Below are positions 30,051 to 38,126 of a DNA stretch of 64,000 bases, in pieces (within the stretch, counting starts at the first letter, position 1; every line of letters starts with the position of its first letter). The position numbers and the translations under genes were made by a program. A model generated the notes under the pieces. That model saw nothing but the letters and a program-made list of their open reading frames with translations. It had not been told where the DNA came from and searched no databases. The stretch comes from Bacteroidota bacterium (lineage in GTDB: Bacteria; Bacteroidota; Bacteroidia; Chitinophagales; Saprospiraceae): positions 124,001 to 188,000 of the forward strand of contig JAKOVW010000053.1 of NCBI GenBank assembly GCA_029781865.1, written 5' to 3'.

Positions 30051-31187
30051 ATGTCAAGCGTGGTCATAGTAGGACCTGCACATCCGTTGCGCGGTGGACT
30101 TGCCTCCTTCGATGAACGGTTAGCCAGAGAATTTCAACAAAAAGGATGGGATACTACTCTCTATACATTTTCATTACAGTACCCGGGTTTTTTATTTCCA
30201 GGTGTCAGTCAATTTTCCGATGAACCGAAACCTGAAAATTTAAACATTCAAGTTTGCATTAACTCTATCAATCCTTTGAATTGGATTAAAATAGGATTGC
30301 GATTAAAAAAGGAAGCCCCCGATCTCATTGTTGTACGATACTGGATTCCTTTTATGGGTCCTTGTCTGGGAAGTATATTGCGAATAGCAAAGCGAAATAA
30401 TAAAACGAAAGTGATTTGTATCGCGGACAATATTATCCCACACGAAAAAAGACCAGGCGATTCTTTATTCAACACTTATTTTCTTCCTGTACCGGATGCG
30501 TTTGTAGTTATGGGTGAATCCGTAAAGAATGCATTGCTTCAGTTCAAACCCGAAGCAAGATATTTGTTAACTGATCATCCATTATATGATAATTTCGGAG
30601 AAATTGTCGACAAAAAGGAAGCCCGGAAATATCTTAACAACCCTGTTGATATAAAATTGGTATTGTTTTTTGGATTTATACGCAAATACAAAGGATTGGA
30701 TTGGTTGCTGGATGCCTTCAGCTCGCCTATCTTGAAAACATCAGATATCCATTTGCTGATTGCAGGCGAATTTTATGAAGACTCTAAACCTTACTTTGAG
30801 CAAATTGAAAAAAATCAGATTGGCAATAAAATTTTGCTTCACACGCACTTCATTCCGGATAGTCAGGTTAAATATTATTTATCCGCAGCAGATGTCGTGG
30901 TGCAACCTTACAAGAATGCAACTCAAAGTGGCGTGACTCCTCTGGCCTATCATTTTGAAAGACCCATGATAGTTACTGATGTTGGCGCTTTAGCAAGACT
31001 GGTCCCGGACAATGTAGTTGGCCTGGTTTGCAAACCAGACCCTGAATCTATTGCAATGGCCATCAAATCCTTTTTTGAAAAAGATCCGGCTTACTTCACA
31101 ACAGGTATAAGAACCGGAAAAATGAAACTAAGTTGGAAGACATTTGTTGATAAAATTTTGGCTTTAAGCAATGATATACAGAAGTAA
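30051..31187 (+). CDS. Glycosyltransferase, GT-B fold (family 4/1 type)
   Basis: 378 residues. The N-terminal Rossmann half begins VVIVGPAHPLRGGLASFDER, with the glycine-rich turn where donor-sugar enzymes place acceptor contacts. The C-terminal half opens with KLVLFFGFIRKYKGLDWLLD, the usual start of the donor-binding domain, and ends with SAADVVVQPYKNATQSGV and FERPMIVTDVGALA. The classical E-x7-E motif is not obvious; a Gln-Ser-Gly stretch sits in its place. The gene is soluble, lies 3 nt after the family-2 enzyme and overlaps hddA by 17 nt, so a role in adding a heptose or a neighbouring sugar is likely. The donor cannot be read from sequence. Confidence 0.85.
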   Translation: MSSVVIVGPAHPLRGGLASFDERLAREFQQKGWDTTLYTFSLQYPGFLFPGVSQFSDEPKPENLNIQVCINSINPLNWIKIGLRLKKEAPDLIVVRYWIPFMGPCLGSILRIAKRNNKTKVICIADNIIPHEKRPGDSLFNTYFLPVPDAFVVMGESVKNALLQFKPEARYLLTDHPLYDNFGEIVDKKEARKYLNNPVDIKLVLFFGFIRKYKGLDWLLDAFSSPILKTSDIHLLIAGEFYEDSKPYFEQIEKNQIGNKILLHTHFIPDSQVKYYLSAADVVVQPYKNATQSGVTPLAYHFERPMIVTDVGALARLVPDNVVGLVCKPDPESIAMAIKSFFEKDPAYFTTGIRTGKMKLSWKTFVDKILALSNDIQK

Positions 31188-32202
31188 AGCACCATTCCGA
31201 TTGGGATTGGCCGGTGGTGGTACCGATGTAAGTCCATACAGTGACTTATATGGAGGTGCTATTTTGAATGCCACTATATCCTTATTTGCGCAAGCGAATA
31301 TTGAACCGATTTCCGAACCTTACATCATATTTCATTCTATCGACCAAAACCTGCAATTGCAGTTTCCCTTGCATACCAGACTGGAGACCGACAATGGACT
31401 TGAATTGCAATGCGGAATATACAACCGCTTGTTATCCGAAAATGTGCTGGGCAAACAAGGATTCAAATTAACCACTCACCTCGAAGTACCAGCAGGCAGC
31501 GGCCTTGGTACATCTTCAACTTTAGTGGTAGCTATTTTGAAAGCATATTCCGAAATGCTGAATCTCCCTTTGGGCGATTATGATCTTGCCCATCTCGCTT
31601 TTGAAATCGAACGTCTCGACCTGAAATTATCGGGCGGTAAACAAGACCAGTATGCCGCAACTTTCGGAGGAGTCAACTTTATGGAATTTTTTGAAGATGG
31701 CAAAGTCATTGTCAATCCACTTCGCATCAGGCAAGAATACTTATTTGAATTGGAAAACAACCTGGTTCTATATTTTACCAGCATTAGCAGACAATCGGAT
31801 GAAATCATCCGGGAGCAACAAAAAAATGTAACCAATCACAATCAAAGTTCGATTGATGCAATGCATCAGCTCAAAGAGCAAAGCAAAATGATGAAAGAAG
31901 CCTTGCTGAAAGGAAAACTGGATGCCATTGGTGAAATTCTTGATTTTGGTTTTATGCAAAAACGCAAAATGGCTCATAATATCAGCAATGACTATATGGA
32001 TGAATTATATGACACCGCCAGGAAGGCCGGAGCATCCGGTGGAAAGATATCAGGAGCCGGCGGAGGAGGTTTTATGTTTTTTTATTGCCCCCGGAACACC
32101 AAATTCAAAGTCATTGAATCACTTAAAAAATTCAATGGGTATTTTATGAATTACCAGTTTACGAAATACGGTGCTCAAAGTTGGAAAATACAAACAGATT
32201 AA
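31171..32202 (+). CDS. hddA: D-glycero-alpha-D-manno-heptose 7-phosphate kinase
   Basis: 343 residues, a GHMP kinase. Motif 1 is FRLGLAGGGTDVSPYSD, motif 2 (ATP-binding) is VPAGSGLGTSSTLVV and motif 3 is KISGAGGGGFMFFY; GGKQDQYAATFGG is typical of the heptose and fucose branch. The enzyme phosphorylates D-glycero-alpha-D-manno-heptose 7-phosphate at C1. The HddA name rests on context: gmhA, hddC and gmhB follow without gaps. The ATG at 31171 overlaps the preceding gene by 17 nt, which suggests translational coupling. An L-fucokinase-like role is unlikely in this setting. Confidence 0.88.
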   Translation: MIYRSKAPFRLGLAGGGTDVSPYSDLYGGAILNATISLFAQANIEPISEPYIIFHSIDQNLQLQFPLHTRLETDNGLELQCGIYNRLLSENVLGKQGFKLTTHLEVPAGSGLGTSSTLVVAILKAYSEMLNLPLGDYDLAHLAFEIERLDLKLSGGKQDQYAATFGGVNFMEFFEDGKVIVNPLRIRQEYLFELENNLVLYFTSISRQSDEIIREQQKNVTNHNQSSIDAMHQLKEQSKMMKEALLKGKLDAIGEILDFGFMQKRKMAHNISNDYMDELYDTARKAGASGGKISGAGGGGFMFFYCPRNTKFKVIESLKKFNGYFMNYQFTKYGAQSWKIQTD

Positions 32203-32203
32203 T

Positions 32204-32788
32204 ATGAATGAGATCATAACAAATAGTATAAGACAATCCATTCTTACCAAACAGAAATTGTCTGAAGATACGGAGACATTAAACAAAATTGAAGCAATTG
32301 CGGATGCCGTTGTTCAGGCTTTAAAAAATCACCATCGGATTTATTTTTGTGGAAACGGAGGCAGTGCTGCAGATGCCCAACACCTGGCTGCTGAATTATC
32401 CGGACGCTTTTATACCGACCGACCTGCCCTCCCGGCTGAAGCCCTGCATTGCAATACCTCCTATCTTACAGCTGTGGCTAATGATTATAGTTATGATGTA
32501 GTCTATCAAAGATTAATTGCCGGAATAGGACAGAAAGGCGATGTACTTATCGGACTTAGTACATCCGGTAATTCCAAAAATATCATTCTGGCCATTGAAG
32601 AAGCTAATAAAAAAAACATGATCACAATTGGCCTCACAGGTGCCAAAGGAGGGCTATTAAAAAACAATTGCACTTTTTGGATTGGCGTCCCGTCGGATGA
32701 TACACCAAGAATACAGGAATCACATATCTTAATCGGGCATATTCTCTGTCAGTTGATTGAAGTAAATTATTTTAATTCCAATTCGTAA
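32204..32788 (+). CDS. gmhA: Sedoheptulose 7-phosphate isomerase
   Basis: 194 residues from the ATG at 32204. A GTG 11 codons earlier (32171) extends into hddA and is less likely; with the ATG the gene starts 1 nt after the hddA stop. The SIS domain shows CGNGGSAADAQHLAAELSGR, the sugar-phosphate serines in GLSTSGNSKN, IGLTGAKGG, and the catalytic ESHILIGHILC region. GmhA makes D-glycero-D-manno-heptose 7-phosphate from sedoheptulose 7-phosphate, the first step of the pathway. Length and motifs match the family well. Confidence 0.94.
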   Translation: MNEIITNSIRQSILTKQKLSEDTETLNKIEAIADAVVQALKNHHRIYFCGNGGSAADAQHLAAELSGRFYTDRPALPAEALHCNTSYLTAVANDYSYDVVYQRLIAGIGQKGDVLIGLSTSGNSKNIILAIEEANKKNMITIGLTGAKGGLLKNNCTFWIGVPSDDTPRIQESHILIGHILCQLIEVNYFNSNS

Positions 32789-32793
32789 TCCCA

Positions 32794-33501
32794 TTGAGAG
32801 AAGCAATCATACTGGCAGGTGGAAAAGGAACGCGGATACAACACCTACTCCCCGGCATTCCCAAATGCATGGCGCCTATCCGTGGCATTCCCTTTGTCTC
32901 TTATTTGATTGAATATCTCATTTCGGAAAACACAGATCATTTTATATTTTCTTTAGGTCATATGCATGACCAGATTATAGATTATCTGGATGCTGCTCAT
33001 TCTGGCATACACAAAAGCTTAGTCATCGAACAATCTCCTTTAGGAACAGGCGGTGCTATTTGCAAGTCGATGGAATCGGTCAACGGAGATGCTGCATTTG
33101 TATTGAATGGCGATACCTGGTTTCCGGTATCTCTGGATAGTATGGCAGACCTGTACCGGAAAAATCATTCCGATTTGGTGTTAGCATCTACTTTGTTGCA
33201 AGCACCCGACCGGTTTGGAACCATTTCGTTTGACAACGAATTCAGGATTACCTCTTTTCACGAAAAAAGAATACTCGAATCAGGATATATTAATGGAGGT
33301 ACCTATTTGATATCCAAAGCAAAAATGATGGCTGAATCCAAGAAAGAAGCCTTTTCTCTGGAAACCGGGATCCTGGAAACTATGGTCAGGGAGTGGAACA
33401 TGTATGCCAGTGTGCAGGATATCCCATTTATAGATATCGGTATTCCTGAAGATTATCATCTTGCTCAATCTTTTATCCCAGAATTAAACTCAGGCATATG
33501 A
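32794..33501 (+). CDS. hddC: D-glycero-alpha-D-manno-heptose 1-phosphate guanylyltransferase
   Basis: 235 residues from a TTG start at 32794, 5 nt after gmhA. The nucleotidyltransferase fold is clear: AIILAGGKGTRIQ, the lysine in GIPKCMAPIRGIPF, the GTGGAICKS loop and FVLNGDTWFP with its metal-binding Asp. HddC joins GMP to heptose 1-phosphate, giving GDP-heptose. HddC is chosen over a hexose-1-phosphate enzyme because of the heptose neighbours. It overlaps gmhB by 4 nt (ATGA). Confident of family, fairly confident of substrate. Confidence 0.87.
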   Translation: MREAIILAGGKGTRIQHLLPGIPKCMAPIRGIPFVSYLIEYLISENTDHFIFSLGHMHDQIIDYLDAAHSGIHKSLVIEQSPLGTGGAICKSMESVNGDAAFVLNGDTWFPVSLDSMADLYRKNHSDLVLASTLLQAPDRFGTISFDNEFRITSFHEKRILESGYINGGTYLISKAKMMAESKKEAFSLETGILETMVREWNMYASVQDIPFIDIGIPEDYHLAQSFIPELNSGI

Positions 33502-34055
33502 AAAGTATCCGCAGTTTATTTCTCGATCGTGATGGGGTGATTAATGAATTGCTTCCAATGGATTATGTAAAGACCATTGAGGAATTCAAATTCAAGGAAG
33601 AAGTGCTGCATGAATTAGCACTATTGTCAAAGCTATTTGATCGCGTATTTATTGTGACCAATCAACAAGGAGTTGGCAAGGGTCTGATGTCCGCTGATGA
33701 TCTCCATGAAATACATTACTACATGAAAAACAAAATTGAAAAGGCAGGAGGCCAAATTACCAAAATATATTCCTGTACACATATCAAAGAACTACAATGT
33801 GAATGCCGGAAACCGAAACCCGGAATGTTGAAAATGGCTTTTACTGAATTTCCGGATGCAACTCCACAACATAGTATACTCGTAGGAGACAGTTCTTCTG
33901 ATATAGAGATGGCAAGTTATCTTGGAATTCCATCTGTTGGTATGTTGCATAAATACAACATGGATGTTGCCTGGCAACCAAAGCCGGACTATTTGATAAA
34001 CAACCTTACAGAATTGAGACTGAAGGTTTTACCTTTGATATTTAATCCATTGTAA
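33498..34055 (+). CDS. gmhB: D-glycero-D-manno-heptose 1,7-bisphosphate phosphatase
   Basis: 185 residues, HAD superfamily of the GmhB/HisB type. Motif I is FLDRDGVIN with the nucleophile Asp, motif II is FIVTNQQGVGKG, and motif IV is VGDSSSDIEMA. The zinc loop CECRKPKPGM is partly preserved, with a further Cys in YSCTHIKELQC. The enzyme removes the 7-phosphate, the last step before the guanylyltransferase acts. The ATG at 33498 overlaps hddC by 4 nt. With it the four-enzyme route to GDP-D-glycero-alpha-D-manno-heptose is complete. Confidence 0.9.
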   Translation: MKSIRSLFLDRDGVINELLPMDYVKTIEEFKFKEEVLHELALLSKLFDRVFIVTNQQGVGKGLMSADDLHEIHYYMKNKIEKAGGQITKIYSCTHIKELQCECRKPKPGMLKMAFTEFPDATPQHSILVGDSSSDIEMASYLGIPSVGMLHKYNMDVAWQPKPDYLINNLTELRLKVLPLIFNPL

Positions 34056-34183: not shown

Positions 34184-34822
34184 ATGTACGCTGTTAAAGA
34201 ACTATTTTACACATTGCAGGGAGAAGGAGCCCGAGTAGGAAGACCTGCCGTTTTTCTGCGGTTTGCAGGATGTAATTTATGGAATGGCCGGGAAGAAGAT
34301 CGGGGCAATGCAATTTGCAGTTTTTGCGATACCGATTTTGTTGGCACTGATGGTACTTTTGGTGGAAAATATGAGAAGGCCACGGATCTTGCAACTCAGG
34401 CTAAATCATTATGGCCTGTTGCTAATGAATTCAAAAGTAAGCCTTATATCGTATGTACCGGAGGTGAGCCTTTGCTACAATTAGATTCTGAATTGATAGA
34501 TGCACTTCATCAACTGGGATTTGAGGTTGCCATAGAAACAAATGGAACCATTGACATTCCCAGAGGCATAGACTGGGTATGTATGAGTCCGAAGCCAAAT
34601 ACGGTAATTAAAGTTCTAAGGGGAAATGAATTAAAGTTTGTCTATCCACAAAAGGAGCTTAATCCAGAAGTATTTGAAGCCTTCGACTATGAACATTTCT
34701 TTATTCAGCCAATGGATGGTTCGGATGTTAAACAAAATATTCAGTTATCATTGGCATATTGTTTGTCAAATCCACAGTGGAAACTGAGTTTACAAACACA
34801 TAAATTACTAGGTATACGATAA
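34184..34822 (+). CDS. queE: 7-carboxy-7-deazaguanine synthase
   Basis: 212 residues, typical QueE. The opening VKELFYTLQGEGARVGRPAVF and FLRFAGCNLWNGREE are signatures. The radical-SAM cluster uses the long-loop form, C-x14-C-x2-C (CNLW...CSFCDTD), of the Gram-negative type. CTGGEPLLQ and IETNGT follow. The enzyme converts 6-carboxytetrahydropterin to 7-carboxy-7-deazaguanine, precursor of queuosine. No queC, queD or queF is in the window. The SET-domain gene starts 4 nt after the stop, so the two are probably co-transcribed, which is odd for a queuosine gene and is noted in the findings. Confidence 0.93.
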   Translation: MYAVKELFYTLQGEGARVGRPAVFLRFAGCNLWNGREEDRGNAICSFCDTDFVGTDGTFGGKYEKATDLATQAKSLWPVANEFKSKPYIVCTGGEPLLQLDSELIDALHQLGFEVAIETNGTIDIPRGIDWVCMSPKPNTVIKVLRGNELKFVYPQKELNPEVFEAFDYEHFFIQPMDGSDVKQNIQLSLAYCLSNPQWKLSLQTHKLLGIR

Positions 34823-34826
34823 GCTT

Positions 34827-35447
34827 ATGCGTTTTCCACATTTTTTACAATCGTTGAAAAAAAAATCTCAAAAAAAATGGACATCAATGAATCGTATAAA
34901 AGATAAACTCTTTACATTGCATCGATTTACAAAACAAGAACCTATCCTGATGGAAATAGTCCGTAGCCTACAAACAAAATCCAATTTTGCAAAAATTGAT
35001 TTTGACCCTAAACTCCAACAAAACCGACTCATATCCCTTAAAAATTTTAAAAAAGATAGTATTATCTGCCATTTCAGTTATGCGGAAATCATGCCTGAAC
35101 CAAACAGGTATACCGTACAAACCGGGGAAGGCAAACACATTATTCTTTCTCCGCTCTATTTAGAATATGTCAATCACAGTTGTGAGCCCAACTGTTTTTT
35201 CGATACTACAAACTTCCAGTTTGTTTGCCTCAGGGATATAGCAAGAGGTGAAGAATTCACTTTTTTCTATCCATCCACGGAATGGGATATGGAAGAAGCA
35301 TTTGAATGTCAATGTCAGACGAAATCATGCCTTGGAGAAATAAAAGGCGCAAAATATCTAACAAACACTCAGGTAGCAAAATATCGTTTCAGCGATTTTA
35401 TAGGCGCAAAATTGAAGAAGGCCAAGAAGCATGTCTTTGAATTATGA
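34827..35447 (+). CDS. SET-domain protein methyltransferase, stand-alone
   Basis: 206 residues from the ATG at 34827; in-frame ATG codons at residues 21 and 42 are alternatives. The core is a SET domain: YVNHSCEPN (Asn116-Asn122), then RDIARGEEFTFFYPS with the catalytic-type Tyr148, and a post-SET C-x-C-x4-C (Cys161, Cys163, Cys168). With Cys119 of the NHSC motif, these give the four-Cys zinc site of eukaryotic SET lysine methyltransferases. The usual Asp before the Tyr is Phe147. The N-terminal 40 residues are very basic (SLKKKSQKKW). Bacterial SET proteins transfer methyl from S-adenosylmethionine to lysines; the substrate here is unknown. The next gene overlaps it by 17 nt. Confidence 0.87.
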   Translation: MRFPHFLQSLKKKSQKKWTSMNRIKDKLFTLHRFTKQEPILMEIVRSLQTKSNFAKIDFDPKLQQNRLISLKNFKKDSIICHFSYAEIMPEPNRYTVQTGEGKHIILSPLYLEYVNHSCEPNCFFDTTNFQFVCLRDIARGEEFTFFYPSTEWDMEEAFECQCQTKSCLGEIKGAKYLTNTQVAKYRFSDFIGAKLKKAKKHVFEL

Positions 35448-36558
35448 CTCAAAGCCATTTAGTAAGGGTGATCAGGATTGGTTAATCTGGATTCTTGCAC
35501 CTTTTGTAAAAACAGAAGACCCTAACCTTCAGTACTATTATGACTTCAGTCAAAGCATAGGTGAATACACCAAAGTTTTTAAAGAACTAGATCTCAATTG
35601 GAAATGGCAGGCTATCGAAATTTCCAATTATAAAGAAATCATCCGCAACATCCAATCCGAATCATCGCCCAGAAGACCTTTGGTAATCAATCTATGTGAT
35701 GGAGATGAAGACAATGGAGTACCCGGCATATCTGTCATTCGTGAACTGGAACTTAATGACTTGATCTATACGGGTTCTGATACCTATTTTTACGACATCA
35801 CGACTTCCAAAATACCCATGAAGAAGTTATTTGACCAGTATCAGGTACCTACTTCACCCTGGATGGTTATCGATATTCAATCTTATGATCCGCATGAAGT
35901 ATTTCAAAAACTAAAAAAACCATTGATTGTAAAGCCTGCGATTTCCGGCGGCAGTCTGGGTCTTGGTTTGAAGTCTGTAGTCCATGATGAACAAGAAATG
36001 AAAAGTTATCTGAATTCAATCATTAATGGATATAAAGGATGGGATTTATCCTCCGGAGGATTTTTTATTGAAGAATTCATCCAGGGGCAAGAATACACTA
36101 CACTTATAGTCGGCCCTTCCGATGATTTGCAGAGATGCACCATTTATGATCCGGTAGAGCGAGTCTTTGAATCTTCAATTCCTGCAACAGAACAATTTTT
36201 ATCATTCGACAGGTTATGGGAAATCTATGAAGAAGAATCACCTATCGAACAGGATAAAGCGTTGTGGAATTATTCCAGACCGAATCCAGCGTTAATCGAT
36301 GAAATTAAATCCATAAGCTGGAAAGCTTACCAGTCTGTAAAGGGAATGGGTTATGGAAGAGTCGATTTGAGAAGAGACCAGATTACCGGAAAAATTATGG
36401 TTTTGGAAGTAAATGCCCAATGTGGCTTGTCTGATGATGAAAACTTTACATCCATTGGTGCCATATTAAGATTATGCGGAGAGCGCTTTACTGAACTTAT
36501 TTATAAAATTATTCAGGATGCCTATCAACGATATCAGTTGAAGCATTCAATGATTTAG
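35431..36558 (+). CDS. ATP-grasp ligase, D-Ala-D-Ala ligase-like
   Basis: 375 residues. The ATP-grasp fold is visible: KKPLIVKPAISGGSLGLGL with the ATP lysine Lys168 and a glycine loop, FFIEEFIQGQEYTTL (metal and phosphate loop), and GYGRVDLRRD followed by VLEVNAQCGLSDDE (Glu326, Asn328). D-Ala-D-Ala ligases read E-x-N-x-x-P-G at this last site; here Cys331 takes the Pro position, so the carboxyl acceptor is probably not D-alanine. ATP-grasp ligases join a carboxylate to an amine through an acyl-phosphate. The ATG lies inside the SET gene (17-nt overlap), a sign of coupled translation. Not a housekeeping Ddl: the context and divergent motif argue against it. Confidence 0.85.
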   Translation: MSLNYDSKPFSKGDQDWLIWILAPFVKTEDPNLQYYYDFSQSIGEYTKVFKELDLNWKWQAIEISNYKEIIRNIQSESSPRRPLVINLCDGDEDNGVPGISVIRELELNDLIYTGSDTYFYDITTSKIPMKKLFDQYQVPTSPWMVIDIQSYDPHEVFQKLKKPLIVKPAISGGSLGLGLKSVVHDEQEMKSYLNSIINGYKGWDLSSGGFFIEEFIQGQEYTTLIVGPSDDLQRCTIYDPVERVFESSIPATEQFLSFDRLWEIYEEESPIEQDKALWNYSRPNPALIDEIKSISWKAYQSVKGMGYGRVDLRRDQITGKIMVLEVNAQCGLSDDENFTSIGAILRLCGERFTELIYKIIQDAYQRYQLKHSMI

Positions 36559-36698
36559 TTTGTATGTATCATAATAAAATGATTTAATCGTTTAAAATTT
36601 ATTTAAATATTCCAATAAATAGATGTTCTATAGTTATGAAATAAACAATATTATATAATTTAGAGCATCGAAATGAATTGTAACATATATTTAGTTCT

Positions 36699-38126
36699 AT
36701 GAAAGTTTGTGTACTCCAACCTGATTACAGCACCTCGAACGTTGATTACAAAAATTATGACCCACCAAGAAACTTAAGTTCGTTGCTTCCTGAAGATACC
36801 GTTGATCATGTATTTTTAAACAAGTTAACCACCTACAAGCAATTGAAAAGCTTGTCTGATCATCATTATGACATTTTTGTAAACCTTTGTGAAGCTTATC
36901 TTGAATGGGAAGTTCCTTCCATTGATGTCATACATTCACTGGATCTTCTTAATTTACCTTATACCGGACCTACGACAGAGCTCTATGATCCCCCTAAGGA
37001 ATTGATGAAATATGTTGCTTATGCATCCGGAGTCGAAGTGCCCAATTTCAGGATCGTAAAAACATTAGAAGATCTTAATGATCTTAGCTTGCATCTCCGT
37101 TTCCCTTTATTCGTAAAGCCGGCAAAAGCAGGAGACAGCCTTGGAGTAGATGACAACTCTTTGGTTTTGGATGAAAAGTCCTTATTGATAAAAGTAAAAG
37201 CTTTGTTGGAAGAATTCGGAGAAGTACTTGTGGAAGAATATATAGATGGCCGGGAATTCACTGTATTGGTTGCTTCCGATCCCAAGGATGAAAAGAAATG
37301 CACCGCATTTAAACCGGTTGAATACATCTTTCCGGAAGGTTTCGCATATAAAACCTATAAATTAAAAACATCCGAACTACATCCTGAAAGCAATATCCCT
37401 TGTAAAGAAGAAAACATTGACCGCAAACTCAGAAAGGCCGCTTGTGCCATTTTCAGAGAATTCGGTGGAAAAGGTTATGCCCGAATGGATTTCCGGATGA
37501 ACGCAAAAGGCAAATTGTTCTTTCTCGAAATCAATTTCACCTGCTCTGTATTTTATGCAGAAGGTTATGAAGGATCCGCCGACCATATTCTAAAATGTGA
37601 TGGAATCGGACAAGCCGGATTTTTGAATCAGATCATTCAGGAAGGTATCAACAGACATAAACGCAAACAGAAAAAATACTACATCAAAAAAGACGCAATT
37701 TCAGGATATGGTATTTACGCCAATAACAAAGTAAGGAAAGGGGAAATCATATTCAGGGGAGAAGAAAAAGCACATCGTTTGGTTTCCAAATCATTTGTAG
37801 ATAAAAACTGGAATGCAGCGGATCGTGAAGTTTTCCGCAAATATGCTTATCCGGTTAGCCGTGATGTATATGTACTCTGGGATTCGCAGCCTTCAGAATG
37901 GGCACCCCAAAATCATTCCTGTTCTCCGAATACAGTATATTTCGGTCTGAACGTCATTGCCAGTAAGGACATTGAAAAAGATGAAGAATTTACATTGGAC
38001 TATGCATCCTTCCTTGATGACCAGATGGAACCTTTTGAATGCAGTTGCGGAAGCCCGAATTGTAGAGGGTTGATCAGCAAACATAGTAAAGAAGTTGAAG
38101 TCAAAGTGGTCAAAGCGTTGATGTAG
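36699..38126 (+). CDS. ATP-grasp ligase fused to a SET methyltransferase domain
   Basis: 475 residues in two domains. Residues 1-315 form an ATP-grasp ligase: FPLFVKPAKAGDSLGVDD, VLVEEYIDGREFTVLV, and FFLEINFTCSVFYAEG, with Glu277, Asn279 and Cys282 where D-Ala-D-Ala ligases have E-x-N-x-x-P. Residues 330-465 form a complete SET domain: GYGIYA (336-341), NHSCSPN (405-411), the catalytic DYASF (Tyr435) and the post-SET C-x-C-x4-C at Cys448, Cys450 and Cys455. Cys408 completes the zinc site. The gene is 140 nt downstream of the single ATP-grasp gene, in the same direction. Fusing ligase and methyltransferase in one chain suggests that they act on one substrate. The substrate is not visible. Confidence 0.88.
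   Translation: MKVCVLQPDYSTSNVDYKNYDPPRNLSSLLPEDTVDHVFLNKLTTYKQLKSLSDHHYDIFVNLCEAYLEWEVPSIDVIHSLDLLNLPYTGPTTELYDPPKELMKYVAYASGVEVPNFRIVKTLEDLNDLSLHLRFPLFVKPAKAGDSLGVDDNSLVLDEKSLLIKVKALLEEFGEVLVEEYIDGREFTVLVASDPKDEKKCTAFKPVEYIFPEGFAYKTYKLKTSELHPESNIPCKEENIDRKLRKAACAIFREFGGKGYARMDFRMNAKGKLFFLEINFTCSVFYAEGYEGSADHILKCDGIGQAGFLNQIIQEGINRHKRKQKKYYIKKDAISGYGIYANNKVRKGEIIFRGEEKAHRLVSKSFVDKNWNAADREVFRKYAYPVSRDVYVLWDSQPSEWAPQNHSCSPNTVYFGLNVIASKDIEKDEEFTLDYASFLDDQMEPFECSCGSPNCRGLISKHSKEVEVKVVKALM

Follow-up and report, generated by a model that had tools for sequence, protein, structure and literature searches.

A conserved three-gene module of SET and Ddl-like ATP-grasp domains, a candidate pathway for a small methylated, amide-linked compound

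In the window, i.e., the whole stretch of 64,000 nucleotides that was analysed, three consecutive plus-strand genes combine two SET domains with two Ddl-like ATP-grasp domains. Their features are given below; here and throughout, residue counts refer to alignments of chosen relatives (48 rows for gene 1, 37 for gene 2, and 49 for the fusion).

34827..35447, plus strand: gene 1, BurB-like stand-alone SET methyltransferase (probable true start at 34950)
35172..35183, plus strand: NHSC box of gene 1, residues 116-119, read from the sequence; N, H, and C invariant in 48/48 rows
35307..35330, plus strand: post-SET CxCx4C of gene 1, residues 161-168, a putative zinc site; cysteines invariant in 48/48 rows
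35431..36558, plus strand: gene 2, Ddl-like ATP-grasp ligase that is not Ddl, core ATP/Mg residues kept
36699..38126, plus strand: gene 3, ATP-grasp/SET fusion
36699..37673, plus strand: ATP-grasp half of gene 3, about residues 1-325
37677..38084, plus strand: SET half of gene 3, about residues 327-462
37911..37922, plus strand: NHSC box of gene 3, residues 405-408, read from the sequence; N, H, and C invariant in 49/49 rows
38040..38063, plus strand: post-SET CxCx4C of gene 3, residues 448-455, a putative zinc site; cysteines invariant in 49/49 rows

The three ORFs, the 17-nt overlap of genes 1 and 2, and the 140-nt gap between genes 2 and 3 are present as the sequence-only reading described them. 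Gene 1 probably starts at M42 (34950). Indeed, its closest relative begins at this position, some other relatives having longer N-termini, and residues 1-50 of the predicted model reach a confidence of only 48-53. With this start, queE (which ends at 34822) lies about 127 nt upstream, and not 4. The domain content previously proposed, two SET and two Ddl-like ATP-grasp domains, is borne out by Pfam, which recognizes SET in gene 1 (5.9e-11), Dala_Dala_lig_C in gene 2 (2.6e-15), and both Dala_Dala_lig_C (9.3e-21) and SET (2.7e-09) in gene 3; the two SET (PF00856) scores, 43.2 and 37.8 bits, are above the gathering cut-off of 22.4. Both SET domains were also said to keep the NHSC.PN box, a Tyr, and the CxCx4C motif. 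The Asn, His, and Cys of the box, the Tyr (48/48 gene-1 rows and 49/49 fusion rows), and the three cysteines are invariant, but a few rows depart from the Ser of NHSC or from the Asn of "PN". In the ATP-grasp half of the fusion, K140, E179, E186, K223, R262, D264, E277, and N279 are invariant (49/49 rows), as are the core ATP/Mg residues R310, D312, E326, and N328 of gene 2 (37/37 rows).

The three genes form a conserved module and constitute one functional unit. Many Chitinophagales-type genomes carry the cassette, as do probable green sulfur bacteria. Of the 83 loci with at least 2300 nt of upstream sequence, 76 have gene 2 immediately before the fusion and 64 show the full gene order, the median gaps being 5.5 and 20 nt. 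The fusion relatives used were the best 80 of 365, and, as the same genome may be in both collections (L045 is the locus of genome G004), the 99 loci are not all independent. In six of nine family relatives, no flanking family is common to the window and the relative. Since relatives have sequence and order in common, the association of the genes does not result from chance. Co-occurrence in genomes points the same way. Among 395 Bacteroidota genomes, we found the fusion in 17, gene 1 in 16, and gene 2 in six, and the fusion is present in 15 of the 16 gene-1 genomes and in all six gene-2 genomes (Fisher p = 4e-24 for gene 1 and 2e-9 for gene 2; by genus, 4e-10 and 3e-9). Homologues occurring singly would have spoken against a common system; the partners mostly co-occur, and in one genome (G268) all four components are present, though scattered over three contigs. 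Gene 1 gave no match in six of 11 checked genomes that keep the fusion and was not found in G031, which also keeps it; in G267 and G396 the fusion is present, and a separate gene 1 or gene 2 was not found at the thresholds used. A reading of the genes as coincidental neighbours, with no joint function, could draw on the 13 of 83 loci where gene 1 was not found as a separate gene within the stretch read. One of these, however, is a natural fusion of gene 1 with gene 2 (L084, 1/99 loci), and this fusion, the co-occurrence even when the genes are dispersed, and the order kept between differing flanks make coincidence highly improbable.

The cassette ligases are not ordinary Ddl enzymes, a possibility ruled out by score, tree, and D-Ala-site residues. 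They score 72.6 and 87.3 bits with TIGR01205, for a curated cut-off of 245.65, while the true Ddl of the host genome, a separate gene located elsewhere, reaches 368.2 bits. In the tree, gene 2 and the fusion ligase are each other's closest relatives and form a clade of their own apart from Ddl (100/100; the trees used 18/49 fusion, 15/37 gene-2, and 20/48 gene-1 rows). As for the residues E15/S150/Y216, which we take to be the D-Ala-site triad of Ddl, the fusion shows D in 43, A in four, and S in two of 49 rows at the S150 position, and T in 43 and W in six, never Tyr, at the Y216 position; gene 2, in which the S150 position was placed by motif only, has G in 37/37 rows. The best matches of both ligases are nevertheless Ddl, and not TTL or RimK, and the fold of the fusion ligase is Ddl-like. 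Ddl being the closest solved relative of both, ligases and methyltransferases could together make a modified cell-wall dipeptide, i.e., an altered peptidoglycan or envelope peptide. We consider this improbable: the triad is mostly lost at the S150 and Y216 positions, and no Mur or Van gene was recognized by eye in the 25 commonest flanking families.

SET domains are regarded as methyltransferases of proteins, chiefly histones; BurB departs from this rule, its substrate being a free amino acid. Among solved SET proteins, BurB is the nearest to gene 1 by profile and fold and, more tentatively, by tree. BurB is the best solved match of the gene 1 profile (5.6e-23, the next solved protein being at 1.7e-11) and the sole match at 1e-9 of the profile built from 48 rows. 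The fold comparison places BurB first (5e-11) and MLL4 second (7e-8), with an identity of only about 30% between the gene 1 model and BurB. In the SET tree, gene 1 tentatively groups with BurB (93/88), BurB forming a long branch and the tree covering only a 114-residue segment; two of the eight other SET loci offered (L002 and L165) yielded no row. BurB (9l4t/9l4v) is a methionine S-methyltransferase that acts on free Met and works in the DMSP and malleicyprol pathway (PMC12542666). Inspection by eye of the 25 commonest flanking families (99 loci) revealed no DMSP-pathway neighbours. The fusion SET is near protein-lysine methyltransferases and BurB to about equal degree: the single sequence matches BurB at 5e-8 and KMT2D at 9e-7, and the profile matches KMT2D at 1.2e-11 and BurB at 9.1e-11. 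From the recurrence of both enzyme types, two rounds or two related substrates had been suggested as possible. Two rounds would agree with the close kinship of the two ATP-grasps, but not with the SETs, which fall in different clades, nor with a probable green sulfur bacterial version that lacks gene 2.

Relatives on plasmids were also considered. In Eleftheria terrae, a plasmid carries a gene-1-like SET whose neighbours encode PKS, TauD, an aminotransferase, and an aldehyde dehydrogenase, and no annotated ATP-grasp was present in the four neighbourhoods read of gene-1-like plasmid matches (eight records). For the fusion, 22 plasmid records matched, none over 80% of its length, and no SET was found in the stretches around the plasmid ATP-grasp records of one Sinorhizobium, one Rhizobium, and Thioflavicoccus, nor in a Nonomuraea stretch.

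An ABC_membrane_3-type gene directly follows the fusion on the same strand in 44 of 93 loci, and its protein is devoid of an ATPase domain in the two members scanned. In the phylum sample, only three of the 17 genomes with the fusion have a close homologue of it, and the eight genomes of the window's genus have none. In probable green sulfur genomes, the fusion is followed by a full ABC transporter in eight cases out of nine, and in the ninth the sequence stops at this point; BLAST gave no likeness between this transporter and the ABC_membrane_3 protein. Other flanking families are common to up to 29 of the 99 loci, at varying positions, and by eye look like shared synteny. None of the three proteins had a PADLOC match at 0.01, and a defence system was set aside.

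As the sequence-only reading noted for the gaps, no precursor peptide gene was found: among 1345 small ORFs (15-110 aa, near the cassette and with little overlap with longer ORFs), no family occurs in more than 10 of the 99 loci. By eye, the cluster from 10 loci seems to run antisense to a neighbouring gene and another, from six loci, resembles a small unrelated protein; both were rejected as precursors. This lack of a widely conserved small ORF argues against a RiPP pathway with a precursor encoded elsewhere, in which the ATP-grasp and SET enzymes would modify a ribosomal peptide exported by the ABC protein. No C39 peptidase was recognized by eye in the commonest flanking families, and the cassette ATP-grasps are Ddl-like, whereas graspetide ligases are RimK/MdnC-like. 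Such a pathway has a small probability, even if graspetide loci, in the accessible part of PMC8939145, combine ATP-grasp ligases with ABC transporters and O-methyltransferases.

The sequence-only reading had inferred a peptide- or protein-tagging pathway. In protein tagging, the ATP-grasps would attach an amino acid to the terminus or a side chain of a protein, and the tag or the protein itself would be methylated by the SETs. SET is best known as a protein-lysine methyltransferase, in line with the KMT2D match of the fusion profile, and a housekeeping target would fit the absence of a conserved small gene nearby; at one locus (L148), the fusion is followed by FGase, MATCAP carboxypeptidase, and glutathione-synthetase-like genes. 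We nevertheless rate tagging as rather unlikely, given that the nearest solved relative of gene 1 works on a free amino acid, that neither the ligases' best matches nor the fusion fold point to TTL or RimK, that an ABC-transporter-type partner would be unexpected for a cytosolic tag, and that no conserved target gene was found beside the cassette (commonest flanking families and small ORFs, 99 loci).

A free small molecule is a more likely target than a protein, given the kinship of gene 1 with BurB, the Ddl-like fold, and the partners of ABC type. The cassette would then be a compact biosynthetic operon whose product, often exported, would be a small, methylated amino-acid compound with amide links, a reading to which we give a roughly even chance. 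We infer substrates and product as follows. The gene-1 SET would use SAM to methylate a free amino acid. Both ATP-grasp domains, that of gene 2 and that of gene 3, would convert carboxylates into acyl phosphates and form amide bonds. The compound joined in this way, or an amine on it, would be methylated by the SET half of gene 3. The ABC-type membrane protein encoded alongside in many of the relatives would export or handle the product, which is probably a di- or tripeptide. More tentatively, and with less than even confidence, the cassette may represent a new class of NRPS-free non-ribosomal peptide pathway, in which SETs serve as small-molecule tailoring methyltransferases for ATP-grasp ligases; its product could be a sulfonium or N-methylated di- or tripeptide, e.g., built from S-methylmethionine.

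If true, a recurrent bacterial module in which two SETs, one of them BurB-like, work with dedicated amide ligases would bring peptide biosynthesis within the range of SET chemistry, and would call for caution with the automatic label "protein-lysine N-methyltransferase" on bacterial SET genes. With three genes, some of them in named isolates such as Lacibacter cauensis and Ginsengibacter hankyongi (loci L097 and L112), the cassette is a compact and testable pathway for a metabolite. Comparative-genomics surveys of the Aravind group may reportedly mention SET and ATP-grasp neighbours. We found no published description of the cassette in the open literature on SET with ATP-grasp, and the accessible parts of PMC3980110 and PMC2922099 do not mention it.

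The cassette resembles several known systems, each in part. Graspetide pathways, as far as the accessible text of PMC8939145 goes, also place an ATP-grasp ligase near a methyltransferase and an ABC transporter, but the methyltransferases named there are O-, C-, and UbiE-type, not SET, and the cassette differs in that no precursor peptide was found. TTLL12 is a eukaryotic protein that carries SET-like and TTL-like domains on one chain, as the fusion does for SET-type and ATP-grasp-type domains; its domain order is reversed, its ligase belongs to the TTL family and is not Ddl-like, and it is reported to be without critical residues and in-vitro activity (PMC3520985). Ddl (TIGR01205) shares its fold with the fusion and the core ATP/Mg residues with both ligases, which differ from it by scores under the cut-off, a separate clade, and D-Ala-site residues that are mostly lost. 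MLL/KMT2-type SETs have the NHSC box, the Tyr, and the post-SET zinc cysteines in common with the fusion SET, together with the profile match, but the fusion SET is bacterial and joined to an ATP-grasp ligase. BurB, finally, is like gene 1 a short stand-alone SET with post-SET cysteines and apparently lies on the same side of the tree; the N of the gene-1 NHSC is an L in BurB, and BurB serves the DMSP/malleicyprol pathway rather than ATP-grasp ligases.

The cassette consists of three genes on the plus strand of the window:

34827-35447, plus strand, gene 1, a SET protein
35431-36558, plus strand, gene 2, a D-alanine--D-alanine ligase (Ddl)-like ATP-grasp protein
36699-38126, plus strand, gene 3, an ATP-grasp/SET protein (the fusion)

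We found again the three open reading frames of the sequence-only reading, with the 17-nt overlap of genes 1 and 2 and the 140-nt gap before gene 3. A Pfam scan detected a SET domain in gene 1, a Ddl-type ATP-grasp domain in gene 2 and both ATP-grasp and SET domains in gene 3, and alignments showed that the SET motifs named in that reading are present and kept in chosen relatives. Gene 1 probably starts at 34950, not 34827, because its closest relative starts there and its first 50 residues have a pLDDT of 48-53 in the AlphaFold model (overall mean pLDDT 84.8, pTM 0.74; for the fusion, 87.6 and 0.85). Upstream lies queE (7-carboxy-7-deazaguanine synthase, 34184-34822), as in 3/9 family relatives read. 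At 31171-34055, four genes, judged by eye, resemble GDP-heptose biosynthesis genes (GHMP kinase, sugar isomerase, nucleotidyltransferase and HAD phosphatase), the Pfam scan having covered the HAD gene only.

Its own genome set aside, a full-length fusion is present in 9 of the 59 relatives listed, i.e., in seven of the eight from the window's genus (the genome without it being 66% complete), in 2 of 28 from elsewhere in the family and in none of the 23 from the rest of the order. Gene 2 adjoins it in all nine and gene 1 in eight; gene 1 was not found in the fusion-bearing genome G031. Three of the nine have flanking genes in common with the window, and the other six have none of its flanking families. 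The comparison was then widened to 99 loci (the window itself, 8 loci of the family, 10 from a phylum search and the top 80 among 365 encoded relatives, these 80 all carrying Bacteroidota group names except two 'uncultured bacterium'). Conservation of the three-gene order, by which the sequence-only reading proposed to check its tagging pathway, was borne out: among the 83 loci with at least 2300 nt upstream, gene 2 lies directly 5' of the fusion in 76, gene 1 falls inside the stretch read in 70, and the full order is kept in 64. One locus, L084, encodes genes 1 and 2 as a single 556-residue protein and was entered in these counts as lacking gene 1. Among 11 genomes whose cassette appeared without gene 1, the gene was found in five (four times beyond the stretch read and once, by coordinates, as the fused gene of L084); the other six gave no match, some of the eleven loci stopping near the cassette. 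The evidence shows that the cassette is a conserved module whose catalytic residues are kept.

Co-occurrence was measured in a 395-genome sample of the phylum Bacteroidota, counting the fusion above 440 bits; six further matches, unfused ATP-grasps at 107-112 bits, were left out. The fusion occurs in 17 genomes, gene 1 in 16 (15 of them with the fusion) and gene 2 in six (all with the fusion). Fisher tests gave p = 4e-24 for gene 1 and 2e-9 for gene 2, and 4e-10 and 3e-9 when counted per genus, all four values being uncorrected for phylogeny. One genome, G315, has a gene-1-like SET (111 bits) without the fusion, and another, G268, has the components spread over three contigs, the first with genes 1 and 2, the second with the fusion and the third with the ABC protein described below.

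Where at least 1000 nt follow the fusion (93 loci), 44 loci encode a protein of about 300 residues directly 3' of it, on the same strand. Scans of two members gave ABC_membrane_3 (PF13748) in each and an ATPase domain in neither. Close homologues occur in 3/395 genomes, all three with the fusion; none was found in 14 of the 17 fusion genomes, nor in 8 genomes of the window's genus, and 14 other genomes of the 395 have remote homologues only (75-106 bits). In the family member G032, the homologue is located away from the cassette.

In one genus (nine genomes), gene 1 adjoins the fusion in every case (one partial); eight of the genomes have a full ABC transporter 3' of the cassette, the ninth sequence ending there. 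The magnesium-chelatase genes adjoining the L152 cassette suggest that these are green sulfur bacteria. An extra small SET of 118-120 residues follows the transporter gene in the 4/4 loci read (L149:11227-11589; L150-L152). Since this genus has gene 1 and the fusion and gives no match to gene 2 at 1e-40, the module core looks like a BurB-like SET (BurB is a SET-domain methionine S-methyltransferase) plus the fusion, gene 2 probably being an addition in Chitinophagales-type lineages.

The proposed pathway presupposed that the ATP-grasps are not ordinary Ddl enzymes. Against a cut-off of 245.65 bits, gene 2 reaches 72.6 and gene 3 reaches 87.3; the genome's true Ddl reaches 368.2. In a 56-row tree, both ATP-grasps form their own clade apart from Ddl (100/100), which makes them look, by sequence, like duplicates of one another. 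Inside this clade, beside gene 2, sits a G031 paralogue (L044:8041-9204, 291 bits), a second gene-2-like ATP-grasp adjoining a sodium:solute symporter gene. The fusion model is nearest to solved Ddl structures; the core ATP/Mg-site residues are invariant in the cassette ligases, and the positions that we take to make up the Ddl D-Ala site mostly hold other residues. The simplest reading is that the cassette ligases are active and have altered substrates. Elsewhere, unfused Ddl-like ATP-grasps adjoin a conserved protein of about 280 residues (L154:7248-9228; L156:8021-10202; L157:7126-9150) with the motif SFYPQPN..CGPFALK, perhaps a papain-like peptidase, although Pfam gave nothing for the L154 copy at 1e-5; this would be a further ligase pair.

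BurB was the best match of the gene-1 profile (5.6e-23), the next solved protein following at 1.7e-11; built from 48 rows, the profile had BurB as its sole match at 1e-9. Foldseek also ranked BurB first (5e-11), before MLL4 (7e-8). In the SET tree, one group (93/88) holds gene 1, a long-branched BurB, the G315 SET and the small SET of the probable green sulfur bacteria. BurB converts free methionine to S-methylmethionine and holds methionine chiefly via its own main chain (PMC12542666). On an Eleftheria terrae plasmid, a gene-1-like SET adjoins PKS, TauD, aminotransferase and aldehyde dehydrogenase genes, a small-molecule setting.

We propose that the ATP-grasps of gene 2 and the fusion would ligate free amino acids and that the two SETs would methylate using SAM, the product being presumably a small methylated peptide, often exported. 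The search beside the cassette loci gave no widely conserved precursor gene, in agreement with the sequence-only reading, which saw no precursor peptide gene in the gaps. Protein tagging instead of a small product is possible, notably by the fusion SET, which the tree places outside the gene-1/BurB group and whose kinship is less clear than that of gene 1: a single-sequence search put BurB (5e-8) ahead of KMT2D (9e-7), and a profile search put KMT2D (1.2e-11) ahead of BurB (9.1e-11). At L148:3041-8792, genes for an N-formylglutamate amidohydrolase, a MATCAP-type carboxypeptidase and a glutathione-synthetase-like ATP-grasp come after an ATP-grasp/SET fusion, all on one strand, possibly a second peptide-modifying cluster.

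In the literature searched, we found no description of the conserved SET/ATP-grasp pairing, nor of SETs that serve ATP-grasp ligases. Every enzyme class in the cassette is already known, and there is a fair chance that the cassette itself is a new class; we file it with ATP-grasp amide biosynthesis and methyl tailoring, in variant form.
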